Shown one piece after another: positions 12,844 to 19,778 of a DNA stretch of 64,000 bases; position 1 is the stretch's first letter; each line of letters opens with the position of its first letter. Position numbers and translations under genes: made by a program. Origin of the DNA: Aestuariivirga litoralis (GTDB lineage Bacteria; Pseudomonadota; Alphaproteobacteria; Rhizobiales; Aestuariivirgaceae); the NCBI RefSeq assembly GCF_015714715.1, contig NZ_WAHS01000001.1:372001-436000 (forward strand), given 5' to 3'. Below the pieces are notes generated by a model. The model was not told where the DNA came from, made no database searches, and was given only the letters and a program-made list of their open reading frames with translations.

Positions 12844-13272
12844 ATGAAGCGCAAAGTTGCCTCCAATATTCTCCGGTCTGCCGCCTTCAGCCGCACGCGG
12901 GCTGATCATTCCAGCGAGCTGGCGCATGATTATTGCGAGCTGATTGCCGAATTGATCGACGAGAAAGGCGAGGCGCGCGGCACCGACATTGCGCTGCGGC
13001 TGGGCGTGGCCAATGCCACAGTTGCCAAAACCATGAAGCGCCTGGCAGAGCAGGGGTTGGTGGAGCAGGAGCCTTACCGCGCCATTTTCCTCACTGCAGA
13101 AGGCTGGAAGATTGCCGAGGATGTGAAGCGCAAGCATGCCATCGTGCGGAATTTCCTGCTGGCGCTGGGGGTCTCAGCGCGTGCCGCAGAAGAAGATGCG
13201 GAGGGCATGGAACATCATGTGAGTGCCGAAACACTGAAGGCCATGGCGCGGTTTCTGGCGCGCAATTCATGA
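12844..13272 (+). CDS. mntR: Manganese-responsive transcriptional regulator MntR (DtxR family)
   Basis: A 142-residue DtxR-family repressor. A winged-helix domain (ELIAELIDEKGEARGTDIA ... VAKTMKRLAEQGLVE) is followed by a dimerisation/metal domain containing DAEGMEHHVS, which matches the E-x-x-E-H metal ligands of MntR. It resembles E. coli MntR over its whole length. Its expected target is the TAGC-N4-GCTA operator at mntH. The stop overlaps the start of the next gene (ATGA), so the two are probably cotranscribed and translationally coupled. Confidence 0.92.
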   Translation: MKRKVASNILRSAAFSRTRADHSSELAHDYCELIAELIDEKGEARGTDIALRLGVANATVAKTMKRLAEQGLVEQEPYRAIFLTAEGWKIAEDVKRKHAIVRNFLLALGVSARAAEEDAEGMEHHVSAETLKAMARFLARNS

Positions 13273-15647
13273 TGCGGTTTTTGCTGGTCGCGCTGGCGCT
13301 GTTCTGGGCCGGGGCGGCGCAGGCGGAACTGAAATGGCAATCCACTGGGCCGGGCGGCGGCGGGGCTTTCCAATCACCGGCGCAGAGCGCTTCCGGCACA
13401 GTGATTGTCGGGTCGGATTTGAGTGGGGCTTACCGTTCGATCGATGGAGGCGCGCATTGGCAAGCGCTGGGGCTTGATCATGGCTTGGGCACCACGCATG
13501 TGGACAGTGTGGCGTTTGATCCCGCGCATGAAGGCGTGGTGCTGCTGGCGGCGGATGATGGGCTTTATCGCAGTGCCGATTGCGGCAAGGCAGCAACTGA
13601 CAAATGCAATTTTCAAAAGATGTTGGCGGGGTATGCGACTGCGGTTGCGGTGGGCGATCATAACGTTGCCTATGTTGCGGGGCTCAACGGCTTCTGCCAG
13701 CCCGGCCCGTTGCTGGCGCGCTCTGCTGATGGTGGCCTGAGCTGGCACAAGGCGCAAGCCGCAGGCCTGCCGCGCAATGCCAATGTGATGGCGCTGCGTC
13801 TGCAGCCGGGCAATCCGAAAATGGTGATCGCACTCTCATCTCCGTGGCGCTTTGCGAGCCCTGGCGCTTGCGGTGCTGGTTGGCCCGATGCAGCTCCGGC
13901 GAAAGCCTATATCTCATCCGATGGGGGCGATCATTTTGCGGCGCTGGACGTGGAGGCGTCGCAGGCTTCGGCCTTCACAGCGGATGCGGCTTTTGATCTG
14001 GCAGACCCGAAGCGCATTTGGCTTTCAGTGGCGCCGGCGCAGAATGAATCACCGGCATCAAAAGGTGATGGCGAGGTGTGGCTGAGTGATGGTGCCGCGG
14101 GGCCGGGGCAGGATTTCAAGCGCATTTCCGCCGAACATTCAGGCCAGATCTGGCCGCTGCGCGATGGGTCTATCCGCCTCATCGATCTACGCCGCGTGCG
14201 GCCATGGTTTAACACGCCGATTGCCACCAAAGATGAAGCGGGCTTCTGGGCCTTGAAAGCTGATGGCACCGCCACGCATGTGACTTCACCGCAGGATTAT
14301 GCGCGCTGGGACATGGGCTGGACTGGGCTGGCGCATAATCCGCAACCCTCGCTCAATGGCAATTTGCAGACGGTGTTTTTTGCCGACGACCAGAATGCCT
14401 GGTGGGTGGATGACCAGTTCATCTACAGGACCACCGATGGCGGCAAGACAGTGAACCAGAGTTTCACCAACAAGGTGGCAAGCGGGTTTGTGTCGCGCAA
14501 GCTCGACAATGCGGTGCCCGGCGTTCTGGTGCCGAGCCCGGCTGATCCCAATCTGCTTTATGCTGGCTATTTCGACATGGGCTGCTGGAGCACCCATGCG
14601 GCGCTGGCGGGCAATGATCAATTGGCATGGGCTGATTGCAATGGGCCAAAGTCGCAAGCGGTGCCCGGCGTGCCGCTCGCGGCTTCACCGCTCAATGGAA
14701 ACTGGAACGGCTATGGCGGCAACACGAGTGCGCTGGCGGTTGATCCCAAAGATCCGCAGACTTTTTGGGCGGTGCATGCGGCGCATAGTTTTGACTTTGG
14801 AAATGAGCAGGCGGGTTTCCCCAAGATCACCGTGAGCCATGACGGATTCAAAACCTGGACAGAGATCACCGGTAATTTCACGGCGCTCTCCAAAGGCGCT
14901 GCAATCACCGATTTGAAAGTGGATGAACCGGCGGTAGGCAAGCGGCGGCTTTGGGCCGCAGCGGGCAACCGGCTGTTCAAGCTGGAGGATGGTGGGAAGG
15001 ATTGGCAGGCCGTGGCCACGCCTTGCGATGGCGGTTTGCAGGTTCTGGCGCTGCAGGGCCGCGCGATGCTGGCTGGTGGGGCCAAGGGTGTGTGTTATTC
15101 GCATGATGCTGGCGCCAGTTGGGCAGCATGGAAAAATGCAATGAGTCTGGGTGAGCCCCGCGCCAGCTGGTGGGCGGCGTTTGGTGCCAGCGCGCAAGGT
15201 GTGACTGATTTTGCCTTTGTGCCCGGTGCGCCAGAGCAAATTTACATGACGGTGATGATCCCAGACTGGGCGAATGATTCCAACATCGCCGGGCTGTGGA
15301 AGAGCGTCGATGGTGGCGTGAACTGGTCACAAGTAAAGGGCCTGGCCGAGGGGCATCTGGAACGTAACTTCATGCGCAGCGTGGCGATCAATCCGAAGAA
15401 CCCGAAGATGATTGTGGTGGGAACTTCGATTGCATCATACGCGGGGGGCTATCTCCCGGCGATCAAGAATATGGGCGCTTTTGTCAGCCGCGATGGCGGG
15501 GCAAGCTGGTCCAAGGCACCGGAGAATGACGGGCTGGCCTGGCCGTTCATCACGCGCCTGCGCTTTACCGGCGGTGAACATCCGCGCCTTTTCGGCATCA
15601 GCCCGGGGCAGGGGATTGTCTATGCCGACGGATCAGGTGGCGAATGA
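13269..15647 (+). CDS. Secreted BNR/sialidase-like beta-propeller protein
   Basis: About 792 residues with a signal peptide (RFLLVALALFWAGAAQA). Many BNR-type Asp-box modules of the form S-x-D-G-G-x-x-W are visible (YRSIDGGAHW, ARSADGGLSW, YRTTDGGKT, YSHDAGASW, KSVDGGVNW, SRDGGASW). These form multi-bladed propellers as in sialidases, GH74 xyloglucanases and sortilin. No catalytic set of a named glycosidase is recognised, so the activity is unknown. It overlaps mntR by four bases, which ties its expression to the manganese regulator. It converges on the EAL gene with a 15-base overlap. Confidence 0.75.
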   Translation: MMRFLLVALALFWAGAAQAELKWQSTGPGGGGAFQSPAQSASGTVIVGSDLSGAYRSIDGGAHWQALGLDHGLGTTHVDSVAFDPAHEGVVLLAADDGLYRSADCGKAATDKCNFQKMLAGYATAVAVGDHNVAYVAGLNGFCQPGPLLARSADGGLSWHKAQAAGLPRNANVMALRLQPGNPKMVIALSSPWRFASPGACGAGWPDAAPAKAYISSDGGDHFAALDVEASQASAFTADAAFDLADPKRIWLSVAPAQNESPASKGDGEVWLSDGAAGPGQDFKRISAEHSGQIWPLRDGSIRLIDLRRVRPWFNTPIATKDEAGFWALKADGTATHVTSPQDYARWDMGWTGLAHNPQPSLNGNLQTVFFADDQNAWWVDDQFIYRTTDGGKTVNQSFTNKVASGFVSRKLDNAVPGVLVPSPADPNLLYAGYFDMGCWSTHAALAGNDQLAWADCNGPKSQAVPGVPLAASPLNGNWNGYGGNTSALAVDPKDPQTFWAVHAAHSFDFGNEQAGFPKITVSHDGFKTWTEITGNFTALSKGAAITDLKVDEPAVGKRRLWAAAGNRLFKLEDGGKDWQAVATPCDGGLQVLALQGRAMLAGGAKGVCYSHDAGASWAAWKNAMSLGEPRASWWAAFGASAQGVTDFAFVPGAPEQIYMTVMIPDWANDSNIAGLWKSVDGGVNWSQVKGLAEGHLERNFMRSVAINPKNPKMIVVGTSIASYAGGYLPAIKNMGAFVSRDGGASWSKAPENDGLAWPFITRLRFTGGEHPRLFGISPGQGIVYADGSGGE

Positions 15648-16868
15648 GAAGGACGTGAGCTTGCTGATCTCTTCCGCCGGAACTGCCGCGCTGAAATAAT
15701 AGCCTTGGCCCAGCTGCACACCCAGCTTGCGCAACACCTGAAGCTGGGCTGCGGTTTCGATGCCTTCCGCCACGATGGCGGCATTGGCGTGCTGGGCGAA
15801 GGTGACCATCGCGGCGACGAGCGCCTGGCGGGCGCGGTCATTCTCGATGTCCTGGGTAATGGAGTTGTCGAATTTGATGATGTCGGGCCGTGCATCCAGC
15901 AAATGCTGCAGGCTGGAATAGCCCAAACCAATATCGTCAATCGCGATGCGCATGCCCTTGGCGCGCAATGGTGCGAGAGCGGCCATCAGGCCCGGATAAT
16001 CATCGATGCCACCGCGCTCGGTCAGTTCGAGGATGATGCGCGATTTATTGAAATCGTCCAGCGCGTCAGCGAAGCCTGCACTGAGAATGGTTGCAGCAGA
16101 GGCGTTGATGCCGATGGCCAAATTGCCTGGTAGATCTTTCGCACCCTTGATGGCGCGCTTTACCGCGAGCAGTTCAAGGGTTTCGACTGCACCCACTTCT
16201 GTCGCCTCAGCGTACCAAACACCAGGCGCCTGCAATGTTTTGCTGCTGAAGCGTGCCAGCGCTTCGACACTATTCACCTTGCCGTCGGCCAGATTGCAAA
16301 TGGGCTGATAGACAATGCGTGGATCTCCTGAAACCAGGGCCTTGCGAAGATCAGCGCGGATGCGAGCGCGGCGGGTCTCCGTCTCGTCATTGGCGCCGAT
16401 TTCTTCGTCGATCTGCCGGCCAACCACCTCTGCAAAGGTTTGCAGCAGATCAAGATCGCGTTGGCTCAGACCGGGTTTGGCTTCGTAGGAGAAGCTGCAG
16501 AAGGTGCCGAAGACGGCACCGTTTGAGAGACGGATAGGCACACTCAAATGCGAACCGATTGGAACTTTGAGGGTTTCCGGCAGGGCCATGGCGGCAGGTA
16601 CATCGGCGGTGTTGGGAATGAGTTGCGGAAGTGTTCCTTCCACGACGTGCTTGCAATAACCTTCAGCCAGGGGCGTGGTGCTGCCGACCTTGACGGCGCC
16701 ATCCCCAGCTGCGGCGCTGACGCTGCGGAAGACTCTCAGTTCGCCACGGAATTCAGAGAGGAAGGCGACATCCATTCCCAGATATGTGCGGATTGCGGAC
16801 AGCACGCTGTCGATGTTGTCAGACACGGCTGGTGAAAATTTAGTGCTTGGAACGTGCTCGTTCATCAA
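15633..16868 (-). CDS. GAF-EAL cyclic-di-GMP phosphodiesterase
   Basis: A 411-residue cytoplasmic signalling protein. The N-terminal GAF sensor domain (about 10-155) is followed by an EAL domain (about 170-405) that hydrolyses c-di-GMP to pGpG. The catalytic marks are present: VEALAR, Asn in GINASA, ELTER, IDDIGLGYSS, IKFD, EGIET and GQGYYF, so it is probably active. There is no GGDEF domain. The GAF ligand is unknown. Tandem start codons exist (MMNEH). It follows the glycosyltransferase operon on the same strand after a 159-base gap in which nothing else is seen. Confidence 0.9.
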   Translation of the reverse strand: MMNEHVPSTKFSPAVSDNIDSVLSAIRTYLGMDVAFLSEFRGELRVFRSVSAAAGDGAVKVGSTTPLAEGYCKHVVEGTLPQLIPNTADVPAAMALPETLKVPIGSHLSVPIRLSNGAVFGTFCSFSYEAKPGLSQRDLDLLQTFAEVVGRQIDEEIGANDETETRRARIRADLRKALVSGDPRIVYQPICNLADGKVNSVEALARFSSKTLQAPGVWYAEATEVGAVETLELLAVKRAIKGAKDLPGNLAIGINASAATILSAGFADALDDFNKSRIILELTERGGIDDYPGLMAALAPLRAKGMRIAIDDIGLGYSSLQHLLDARPDIIKFDNSITQDIENDRARQALVAAMVTFAQHANAAIVAEGIETAAQLQVLRKLGVQLGQGYYFSAAVPAEEISKLTSFSFAT

Positions 16869-17027: not shown

Positions 17028-18125
17028 TTAAAACGGGCCACCCAATGCTATCGCCTTCACACGATAGGATATTTCCGCTGGTTCCAGTTCACTGGCGCGG
17101 CGCAGGCAGGCGGCTGCTTCTGGCCTATCGCCTAGGCGAAGCAGCGCCACGGATTTGAGCTCCAGCGCGTAGGCACCGAGCAGGCGCTCATCAAATGATA
17201 CAATCGAATCGAGATAGGTGGCGGGGTCAGTGGCCATCAATTGGTCCAAGGTCACTATGGCAGACGTGAAATCACCTGCATTGATCTGGTGGCGTGCCCG
17301 TAGGAACAGCAGCGGCGGGGCGCCGGGTTGGAAGGCCAAGCCCTGGGCTATGATGGCGCCTGCATCTTCATTCTGCGCCAACAGCAGTGCAGAATAGTTG
17401 AGAGCGATTAAAGCCGCGATGGATTCGGTGGCGGCATCTCTTTTCCCCTCGGCGCGGGCCAGGCCTTCGATGGAAACGGCGCGGGCCTCTTCAATCTCGC
17501 CCAATGCAACCAAGGCCCTGGCCAAGTCCAGCCAGTAGTAAAGCCGGTCTGGCCATTCCTGCACCATGCGGCGCAGCATGGGGAGGTTGCGGCGGTGTTT
17601 ATGGGTGATGTCACCCTCATAACCCAAATGATCAATTCCGGCTTCGATGTCGATGATCTCGGCGTTTTCTAAGGCGCGCAGGCGCATCAGATCGGGTACC
17701 ATGGTTTCGTGTATGGCGCCGACGAAGCGAATATCAGCGCGGTTCCTAAATACCCGGTATTCGCGGGCTGCCGTGCCTCGAAGAGTGGATTTGAATTTGA
17801 CGCGCGCGCCGACTGCCACAGGATTTTCGAGCAGGGTTGCCAAGCGCAAGCCATCGGGCAAAATCAGCCGCTCATCAGCATCGATATAAAGAATCCAGGA
17901 GGTTCTGATGGCATCCAGCCCGGTGTTGCGGGCAGCGGCAAAATCCTGGCGCCAGGCGAAATCAATCACTCTGGCGCCAGCATTCATGGCGATCTCTCGC
18001 GTTCCGTCGCTAGAGCCAGTATCCACAATGACGATTTCGTCAACATGGCCCTCAAGCGATGCCAGGCACCCCGGAAGGAATGTCTTTTCATTCTTGACAA
18101 TCAGCGCAGCGGAAACCGTCTCCAT
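17028..18125 (-). CDS. GT2 glycosyltransferase with C-terminal TPR-like repeats
   Basis: A 365-residue cytoplasmic protein. The N-terminal GT-A domain has ALIVKNEKTFL, VDTGSSDGT and the metal motif YIDADERL, typical of family 2. From about residue 190 it turns into helical TPR-like repeats (LYYWLDLARALVALGEIEEA, LRLGDRPEAAACLRRASEL). The architecture recalls SunS, the S-glycosyltransferase of sublancin, and other GT2-TPR enzymes that modify proteins or peptides. It is the last gene of a four-gene operon and begins 24 bases after the repeat-peptide gene, which is its likely substrate by position. That substrate assignment is inference. Confidence 0.85.
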   Translation of the reverse strand: METVSAALIVKNEKTFLPGCLASLEGHVDEIVIVDTGSSDGTREIAMNAGARVIDFAWRQDFAAARNTGLDAIRTSWILYIDADERLILPDGLRLATLLENPVAVGARVKFKSTLRGTAAREYRVFRNRADIRFVGAIHETMVPDLMRLRALENAEIIDIEAGIDHLGYEGDITHKHRRNLPMLRRMVQEWPDRLYYWLDLARALVALGEIEEARAVSIEGLARAEGKRDAATESIAALIALNYSALLLAQNEDAGAIIAQGLAFQPGAPPLLFLRARHQINAGDFTSAIVTLDQLMATDPATYLDSIVSFDERLLGAYALELKSVALLRLGDRPEAAACLRRASELEPAEISYRVKAIALGGPF

Positions 18126-18148
18126 TCGCGCTGCTTGCCAGACGGGTC

Positions 18149-18424
18149 TCAGTTCGCGTTGAGTCTGATGGCCGGGTCAACGATATTGACCGTAACGTCC
18201 ATGCCATTCGTGAGGACGGTGTGTGGCACGACAGTGACACTGGCCACATTGAGGCAATTCACGCCCTGGGTGACACTGGCCACATTCAGGCAATTCACGC
18301 CTTGGGTGACACTGGCCACATTCAGGCAATTAACACCCTGGGCGGCGTTGACCATGCCGTCCAACATGAAGGTCACCACGCTGGGTGCCACAAAAGTGTT
18401 TGGTGCAATGGAAGAATTCAACAT
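18149..18424 (-). CDS. Cysteine-bearing tandem-repeat peptide, candidate modified peptide
   Basis: A 91-residue protein: a hydrophobic N-terminal part (MLNSSIAPNTFVAPSVVTF), three exact copies of QGVNCLNVASVT, then a tail ending DPAIRLNAN. It has only three Cys, one per repeat, and is rich in Ser, Thr, Asn and Val. Five codons vary among the three repeats and all changes are silent, strong evidence that the frame is translated and selected. AAGG lies upstream of ATG 18424. It sits between a PqqD-like gene and a GT2-TPR gene, so a ribosomally made, glycosylated (Cys, Ser or Thr) product is proposed. It matches no family I recognise. Confidence 0.7.
   Translation of the reverse strand: MLNSSIAPNTFVAPSVVTFMLDGMVNAAQGVNCLNVASVTQGVNCLNVASVTQGVNCLNVASVTVVPHTVLTNGMDVTVNIVDPAIRLNAN
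18234..18341 (-). repeat. Three 36-bp tandem repeats in frame
   Basis: Units 18234-18269, 18270-18305 and 18306-18341, each 12 codons, encode QGVNCLNVASVT three times. Differences (CAG/CAA, GGC/GGT, GTG/GTT, CTG/CTC, ACC/ACT) are all synonymous. The repeat stays in phase with the gene. Confidence 0.95.
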
Positions 18425-18503
18425 GTCATTAGCCTTATTGAGAATTTCGATGCGCTGAGATTAGGCGGCGGGCGATAAATTGCAAACGGATTTATTTGGG
18501 TTT

Positions 18504-18782
18504 CTACAGCTTGCACTGAAGCAGGCCTAGGCTGACGAGGTTCTCGGCGCAAGCTAGCGTTTCGGCCATCGGGGCCTGCGGCAAAGCATAGGCTTCCTGC
18601 ATCGCGGAGGCGATTGCGCCCAGGCTGCGCGTGCCATCCGAGAGGTTGAACACCATGGAAGCCGTGGCGTTGAGGTGGTGGATTTTTTCGCTCTCTGGCT
18701 GGAAGAGAATCAGGCCGTCCGGCGTCTGGGTTTTTTCCAGCATGGTCTCGGTCACGCAGATCATTTCAGGCTTCAGTTCCAC
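18504..18782 (-). CDS. PqqD-family protein (RiPP recognition element)
   Basis: A 92-residue protein of the PqqD fold, a winged-helix domain that binds leader peptides of ribosomally made, modified peptides and presents them to tailoring enzymes. The family pattern is visible in the N-terminal strands (DGLILFQPESEKIHHLNATAS), the MVFNLSDGTRSLGAIASAM helix pair, and the C-terminal helix ending LVSLGLLQCKL. The GTG start at 18782 has AAGGATC at good spacing and overlaps the preceding glycosyltransferase by ten bases, implying coupling. The neighbouring repeat peptide is the natural candidate ligand. No pqqA/B/C/E genes are present, so a PQQ role is unlikely. Confidence 0.8.
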   Translation of the reverse strand: MELKPEMICVTETMLEKTQTPDGLILFQPESEKIHHLNATASMVFNLSDGTRSLGAIASAMQEAYALPQAPMAETLACAENLVSLGLLQCKL

Positions 18783-19678
18783 GGCAAGATCCTTCGTAGG
18801 CGATGATGCAGCATCCGCCGTCGGGCCCGGCCTTGCAAGATGCGGCTCAGTTTCTGGGTCTGGTCGGTGCCGGCGGGTGGCGCGGACTCTACAGGCTGAT
18901 AAGCGGGATGGGATGCAAAGGGCAGGATGACGGAGAATTCACTGAGGGCGGCCTCATAGTCGAAAGTGAGGGTGGCGGCATTGAGGATCGCCGTAAAATG
19001 CGCGTCGTCCCAAGTGTTGCTGGCGTGGATACAATAGCAAAAGGCAGTAGGGTCATCGAGGATGGCGACTCTGGATCGGCGCAGCAATCCCTCGGCCACC
19101 GGCGTGTCCTCGCCACGGGCGATTTCCGGATAACGGGTGAGGGCACTTTTGCGCACGATCATGCTGGCTTCCCAGCTGCGATCATGCGACAGGCAGAGGC
19201 GTTTTTGGCCCGGGCTCCACAACAGGACCTGGCGCAGGAACATTGCGTCGGTACCTGTCTGCAACAGCGCATTCATGCCCTGCTGCAGGCGGGTTGGGCT
19301 GTAAAGATCATCATCATCCCACTGGCAGACATAATCGCCGCGCGCCTGATCGATGCTGATATTGCGCAGCGCGCCCAGCACGCGCTTCCCCTTCACTTGG
19401 ACGAGGCGGACATTTGTGCCGCTTCTGGCGCAAAGTGATGTGAGCGGCTTGGTGACCGCATCGCAGACGATCACCAGTTCCTTGTCGGCATAAATTTGGC
19501 TGCGGAAGCAGGCGATGGAAGCTGCCACGCGCGACACATCCCCACGCGTCACCATCAGGCAGGAGACCATCGGCCCCTGCACCGGCGGTGGGGGCAGCTT
19601 GATGATTTTGTCGGGGGCAGGAAATGCGTTGGTGGAGCGCAGGCTGGCTTCATAGATGCAGGCGGAAAGTTGGTTCAT
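18773..19678 (-). CDS. GT2 family glycosyltransferase
   Basis: A 301-residue GT-A glycosyltransferase. Its core starts at MVSCLMVTRGDVSRVAASI. The nucleotide-sugar/metal motif is QWDDDDLYSP, preceded by RNISIDQARGDYVCQ. The WEASMIVRKSAL segment corresponds to the acceptor side. It heads the four-gene operon and starts only 25 bases after the tRNA-Val CCA end, so it may share that tRNA's transcript. With the GT2-TPR enzyme at the other end, the locus holds two different glycosyltransferases, which could add two sugars in sequence. The sugar donor is unknown. Confidence 0.82.
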   Translation of the reverse strand: MNQLSACIYEASLRSTNAFPAPDKIIKLPPPPVQGPMVSCLMVTRGDVSRVAASIACFRSQIYADKELVIVCDAVTKPLTSLCARSGTNVRLVQVKGKRVLGALRNISIDQARGDYVCQWDDDDLYSPTRLQQGMNALLQTGTDAMFLRQVLLWSPGQKRLCLSHDRSWEASMIVRKSALTRYPEIARGEDTPVAEGLLRRSRVAILDDPTAFCYCIHASNTWDDAHFTAILNAATLTFDYEAALSEFSVILPFASHPAYQPVESAPPAGTDQTQKLSRILQGRARRRMLHHRLRRILPWN

Positions 19679-19703: not shown

Positions 19704-19778
19704 TGGTGGGGGCAACAGGGATCGAACCTGTGGCCACACCGATGTGAACGGTGTGCTCTACCGCTGAGCTATGCCCCC
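19704..19778 (-). tRNA. tRNA-Val (anticodon CAC)
   Basis: A full cloverleaf on the minus strand: acceptor GGGGGCA/TGCCCCC, D arm GCTC-AGCGGTA-GAGC, anticodon stem CACCG/CGGTG with loop TTCACAT (anticodon CAC, reading GUG), T arm ACAGG-TTCGATC-CCTGT, discriminator A, and an encoded CCA (19706-19704). It is 75 bases including CCA. Confidence 0.97.

Follow-up and report, generated by a model that had tools for sequence, protein, structure and literature searches.

Results

Gene organization at the locus

The stretch of DNA analysed here, referred to below as the window, comprises 64,000 nucleotides of the Aestuariivirga litoralis genome. ORF calling in the window verified four open reading frames at the locus. 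They share the minus strand and read, from 5' to 3', GT2A, PqqD-like gene, peptide gene and GT2B. The genes and the elements of the peptide are as follows.

18773..19678, minus strand: GT2A, GT2-type glycosyltransferase, 301 aa (PF00535, E = 2.3e-10)
18504..18782, minus strand: PqqD-like protein, 92 aa (PF05402, E = 3.2e-8, above the curated cut-off)
18149..18424, minus strand: peptide, candidate precursor, 91 aa (no Pfam match; leave-out profile and 24-peptide alignment)
18368..18394, minus strand: leader motif FVAPSVVTF (F11-V-A-P14-S-V16-V-T-F19), residues 11-19 of the peptide, counterpart of YxxPx[VIL]
18233..18340, minus strand: three repeats of QGVNCLNVASVT, residues 29-64 of the peptide, 36 nt each
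17028..18125, minus strand: GT2B, 365 aa (PF00535, E = 8e-18, and several TPR models)

GT2A and the PqqD-like gene overlap by 10 nt, and gaps of 79 nt and 23 nt separate the PqqD-like gene from the peptide gene and the peptide gene from GT2B, respectively. An earlier note on this DNA had described four codirectional genes with tiny gaps or overlaps, encoding two GT2 glycosyltransferases, a PqqD-fold protein, and a 91-residue peptide with three identical 12-residue repeats. The ORF coordinates, the Pfam matches (PF00535 for GT2A and GT2B, PF05402 for the PqqD-like protein) and the repeat copies, which start at residues 29, 41 and 53, agree with this description.

Upstream of GT2A, at a distance of 25 nt, is a tRNA-Val gene (cac; 19704-19778, minus strand). 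On the other side, the gene of a GAF-EAL protein (15633-16868) adjoins the locus on the same strand, with no evident link to it, and a large ORF (12933-15647) lies beyond. A scan for promoters and terminators gave results at chance level only. In the two closest relatives examined, a glycoside-hydrolase-like gene (named by eye) flanks the alanine racemase gene in place of the tRNA and the locus, and since both are missing there, we regard the locus as accessory. An origin from a mobile element was set aside, as the composition is native-like and no stretch of the tRNA of at least 12 bases is repeated in the window in the same orientation; no sign of recent mobility of the locus was seen.

The peptide belongs to a family with a shared putative leader motif

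The three copies of QGVNCLNVASVT each hold one Cys, and their 36-nt spacing was found again by an independent check. At the nucleotide level the repeat units differ at five codons, and every change is a synonymous third-base change, a pattern that speaks for translation of the frame and for conservation of its product. On these sequence features, the peptide is in all likelihood the product of a real gene. Relatives were sought with a profile of 23 peptides from related loci, from which the window peptide had been left out. When the window's 658 small ORFs were scored with it, the window peptide came first (E = 2.6e-4; next E = 1.7), and its score was reached by none of 20,000 shuffles; by these sequence scores, its kinship to the other peptides is beyond chance.

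Alignment of the 24 peptides revealed a common motif, [YF]xxPx[VIM]xx[FYLM], in which Pro14 is invariant. Its first residue is Phe in the window (FVAPSV) and Tyr or Phe in the relatives, with Phe also found in five other loci. As a sequence pattern, [YF]xxPx[VI]xx[FY] resembles the YxxP leader motif to which the adapters of lasso peptides and of linear polyphosphorylated peptides (LPP) bind. Precursors of those two kinds have [Y/W]xxPx[L/V/I/F/A], from which the FVAPSV of the window departs by its Phe in the first position. The cores that follow are very short and variable in the relatives. Some loci carry family peptides in tandem: in L046 (10115-11884), seven lie upstream of one GT2B, and every one of them has VANGSG or AANGSG close to its C-terminal end; L045 has three such peptides. 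Among 69 genomes of the family, only the window's own copy of its peptide was found, and a class-wide search with the peptide profile, which scored few candidates per genome over a broad sample, returned nothing further. Two more family peptides lie beside PqqD genes at loci outside the profile set. One of these loci (L098:6259-8385) has its PqqD-like gene and peptide beside a NodZ-like fucosyltransferase (PF05830), the other (L099) beside a GT10 transferase, both without GT2B.

The PqqD-like protein is a predicted RiPP recognition element

The PqqD-like protein, a small stand-alone protein of the PqqD fold, is the sole PF05402 match in the genome. Its AF2 model (pLDDT 94.8) most closely matched the folds of the lasso adapters TbiB1 (solved with leader peptide) and TfuB1, followed by PqqD, and profile comparison gave TfuB1 as the best match and 9x8z as the second. 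Based on these models, the protein is predicted to be a discrete RiPP recognition element (RRE) that binds the leader motif of the peptide. In LppB, Asp70 hydrogen-bonds the leader Tyr (PMC13381572). The Asp of 9x8z in the aligned column is residue 70 when counted from Met1, and because this number fits LppB Asp70, we infer that 9x8z is LppB. Of the 15 RREs compared, 12 have an acidic residue (Asp or Glu) in the LppB Asp70 column, which is Glu74 in the window; the remaining three have Met, and their peptides have Phe. All nine adapters of Tyr peptides are acidic in this column, and the window pairs Glu74 of the adapter with Phe of the peptide. A role in PQQ synthesis was rejected: the presence of only one PqqD in the genome speaks against it, and the protein scored 27.9 bits against a cut-off of 46 for PQQ_PqqD. 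PQQ biosynthesis also involves a PqqA precursor and the radical SAM enzyme PqqE, and by Pfam none of the four genes encodes a radical SAM protein.

GT2B resembles SunS and ThuS, and GT2A is specific to the locus

Sequence identity between GT2B and its 16 homologues is 33-47%, and the motifs DTGS, DADER, HE and HxGY are invariant. The best PDB matches to its profile were GmaR, SunS and ThuS, and its AF2 model (pLDDT 93.2) found SunS and ThuS as the best folds (E = 4e-18), with the next group at 1e-8. SunS and ThuS are peptide S-glycosyltransferases whose substrate residue is Cys. Against the curated SunS model TIGR04195, GT2B scored 58 bits, with the cut-off at 350, which places it outside that family; since the match is only partial, GT2B may share the mode of action of SunS while not belonging to its family. 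Taken together, the sequence and the model predict that GT2B is a peptide glycosyltransferase of the SunS/ThuS kind, with TPR helices at its C-terminal end, and the conserved core enzyme of its family.

GT2A presents a different picture. At E <= 1e-20 it is absent from 67 of the 68 other genomes of the family, and no counterpart was found in the other GT2B loci, so that a place for GT2A in the conserved machinery is not supported. Most of its relatives are domains of larger glycosyltransferases, those on plasmids (Azospirillum) lie in unrelated surroundings, and its weak NCBIfam and PDB matches are enzymes of the polysaccharide kind. By sequence, GT2A is an ordinary, locus-specific GT2, and it probably performs a second sugar-adding step.

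Peptide, adapter and GT2B genes recur together

A search of 398 genomes of the order detected GT2B homologues in 12, and further GT2B loci within the family were reached via PqqD homologues, giving 17 loci including the window; the 16 others are all from the same order, in which kindred peptides and enzymes appear in about a dozen further genomes. A short peptide is encoded directly upstream of GT2B in 15 of these 16 loci (16 of 17 with the window), at a distance of 18-121 nt as measured to the first possible GT2B start, and a PqqD-like gene lies near GT2B in 14 of the 16. The window belongs to this peptide/RRE/GT2B family, having a peptide that matches the family profile directly upstream of GT2B. 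The PqqD subfamily occurs in 14 of the 398 genomes and GT2B in 12, all 12 being shared (3e-21, a value that ignores relatedness and is partly circular, since GT2B loci supplied the sequences of the PqqD profile). The PqqDs of two genomes (G260 and G186) were outside the profile set, yet both genomes contain PqqD and GT2B. The peptide, PqqD and GT2B thus recur together across several families, and the co-occurrence for which the earlier note had proposed a search is found for these three and not for GT2A. Loci lacking the peptide or the PqqD-like gene, which it had named as evidence against its proposal, exist only marginally: the peptide was not recognisable in one of the 17 (L039), and an adjacent PqqD gene is missing from two (L038 and L039), both in genomes that carry PqqD elsewhere.

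The whole locus is present in one of the 69 genomes of its family, and the repeats and GT2A are known from that genome only. A class-wide search with the GT2B profile, in which few candidates per genome were scored over a broad sample, returned nothing further, and no GT2B relatives were found in plasmids at E <= 1e-30. Several other genes recur as neighbours in the related loci: an HprK-like gene lies beside GT2B in seven of them and NTP_transf_5 in six, and GT10 is present in seven, Mannosyl_trans3 in seven, GT4 in six and Anp1 in six. The fucosyl- and mannosyl-type transferases of the relatives suggest that larger glycans are made there. Ten loci encode, beside GT2B, a protein of 310 aa that matches ATP-grasp weakly (e.g., L022:8670-9602) and possibly performs a second peptide-modifying step. 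In L019 (1789-4707), GMC oxidoreductase and NTP_transf_5 genes adjoin GT2B, and the same arrangement is seen in L020 by ORF similarity.

Asn is the preferred candidate acceptor

The earlier note had implied the single Cys of each repeat as the sugar site. This is not supported, since Cys is present in only one of the 16 non-window cores and Asn in all 16, and the core of one locus (L043) contains no Ser, Thr or Cys. We favour Asn over Cys because it is the sole candidate residue in all related cores. The family Asn corresponds tentatively to the GVN of the window repeat, in a part of the alignment that is gapped. On this comparison of sequences, the Asn of each repeat, at residues 32, 44 and 56, is the preferred acceptor, with Ser, Thr and Cys (residues 33, 45 and 57 for Cys) as further candidates. 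The earlier note's proposal of a sugar at each repeat, possibly with two sugars, gained no direct support. Asn glycosylation is known from other enzyme families.

Discussion

A proposed glycosylated-peptide pathway

Our preferred reading, to which we assign a probability of roughly three in four, is that the four genes specify an RRE-dependent pathway to a glycosylated peptide (a RiPP), in a variant form that has no kinase, nucleotidyltransferase, peptidase or transporter adjoining it. The gene order, the homology of the peptide, adapter and GT2B to the co-occurring families, and the fold matches are direct observations; from sequences and models we infer peptide binding, sugar transfer, the order of steps and the acceptor residue. 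The 91-aa precursor would be translated, and the PqqD-like protein would bind its N-terminal FxxPxV, as lasso B1 and LppB proteins bind YxxP leaders. The adapter would then present the downstream core to GT2B. In this enzyme the GT2 domain would transfer the first sugar, and the TPR helices would help to hold the peptide. GT2A may add a further sugar or modify other sites, and the three-fold repeat would multiply the modification site. Leader removal and export, if they occur, would depend on genes outside the locus, as no peptidase or transporter was found among the four genes (Pfam) or adjacent to them. The conserved gene neighbourhoods, the YxxP-type motif and the two models thus support the earlier proposal of a peptide held by the PqqD-like protein and glycosylated by a SunS-like enzyme. 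Several findings count against the pathway: the window peptide begins its motif with Phe, unlike the Tyr or Trp of lasso and LPP leaders, GT2B falls far below the cut-off of the SunS model, the whole locus is known from one genome of its family, and no peptidase or transporter adjoins it.

A more specific version of this pathway is possible, and we put it forward tentatively. The RRE would hand a YxxP-type peptide to the SunS-like GT2, which would glycosylate a conserved near-C-terminal Asn in the cytoplasm without an oligosaccharyltransferase; the window would produce a three-site multivalent glycopeptide, and the relatives would extend their glycans via fucosyl- and mannosyl-type transferases.

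Other explanations differ in what the peptide is for or where the sugar goes. The one we consider least improbable, unlikely but deserving attention, overlaps with the preferred reading and treats the peptide as a carrier or primer for glycans, a scaffold instead of a bioactive product, on which GT2B starts a chain that later enzymes extend. The GT10, NodZ-like, Anp1, Mannosyl_trans3, GT4 and Stealth-type transferases beside the relatives' peptides exceed what a single decoration needs, and the repeats would yield several chains per peptide; against this, the window has two transferases only, the relatives' cores are very short and variable, and no polymerase or ligase was seen. Somewhat less probable is glycocin-like S-glycosylation of the Cys in each repeat. 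It has in its favour that the best structural matches of GT2B, SunS and ThuS, modify Cys, and that each repeat has one; however, a conserved enzyme cannot generally use a residue found in one of 16 related cores, and the genome gave no C39 peptidase match.

We think it improbable that GT2A and GT2B serve a surface polysaccharide, with the PqqD-like protein and the peptide as neighbours of a regulatory or incidental kind. Most GT2 enzymes do act in such pathways, the weak matches of GT2A are alike in kind, the relatives lie amid other glycosyltransferase genes, and the LPP and lasso loci of Bacilli are often inside capsule loci (PMC13381572). Nevertheless, the surroundings of the four genes yielded no recognisable flippase, polymerase or initiating transferase, the nearest solved relatives of GT2B modify peptides or proteins, and the peptide, PqqD and GT2B recur jointly across several families. 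Most improbable of all is a decayed or inactive LPP-like remnant that has lost its kinase, nucleotidyltransferase and peptidase. The HprK-like gene of seven related loci and the NTP_transf_5 of six would fit such a loss, as would the lack of NTP_transf_5 in the window's own genome, but the four frames are intact, their motifs are conserved, the repeat changes are silent only, and relatives L022-L024 and L042 also have no kinase.

Comparison with known systems

Returning to the preferred reading of an RRE-dependent glycosylated-peptide pathway, the locus shares features with several known systems. Like the glycocin loci (sublancin SunS, thurandacin ThuS), it has a peptide glycosyltransferase of the same fold, with a GT2 domain and a helical extension. 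Glycocin loci, which are not known to use an RRE, encode a C39 transporter, thiol oxidoreductases and a precursor whose cysteines are paired. A search of the window's genome for the C39-peptidase transporter (PF03412) gave no match, with positive controls, and the earlier view that this is not a classic glycocin cluster holds.

Like the LPP systems of Bacillota (PMC13381572), the window has a discrete PqqD-like RRE, a short precursor whose predicted leader, FVAPSV, resembles YxxPxV, no lasso cyclase, and a glycosyltransferase-rich neighbourhood, and some related loci add HprK-like and NTP_transf_5 genes to this likeness. The LPP core genes encode a signal-peptidase-like protease, an HprK kinase, an NTP transferase and an MsbA-like transporter (PMC13381572). 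Unlike LPP loci, the window has none of these adjoining, and has instead the SunS-like GT2B, GT2A and a repeated core. Neither the four genes nor the neighbouring GAF-EAL gene encodes an HprK-like kinase, and an HprK_rel_A search of the window's own genome gave no match, with controls likewise silent. An NTP transferase of the PF14907 type had no match in the whole genome, with positive controls, and neither a signal-peptidase-like peptidase nor an MsbA-like transporter was recognised by Pfam among the four genes. Lasso peptides of the paeninodin/pseudomycoidin type (PMC9266682) also use a discrete RRE, B1; their leader has [Y/W]xxP, which the Phe-containing motif of the window resembles. Their tailoring involves a kinase and a nucleotidyltransferase, and pseudomycoidin gains hexoses after phosphorylation (PMC9266682); in contrast, the B2 peptidase and macrolactam cyclase are absent from the four genes, and tailoring would be performed by GT2 enzymes. 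RRE-glycosyltransferase fusions, reported by surveys of RREs (PMC7470986; PMC12710340), likewise associate an RRE with a PF00535 glycosyltransferase, as a fused domain, whereas in the window the proteins are separate and a precursor family is identified. No description of the peptide/RRE/GT2B family was found in the literature searched, whose coverage was incomplete.

If the pathway is correct, an entire family of RRE-guided peptides outside the Bacillota would have glycosylation as its primary modification, and leader recognition of the lasso/LPP type would be joined with SunS-type peptide glycosylation, two themes that were previously separate. GT2B would possibly be a GT2 enzyme that adds sugar to Asn. 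The locus would offer a small, testable four-gene system, with relatives that carry up to seven tandem precursors, and it would provide a handle on the role of such peptides in polysaccharide-rich loci.
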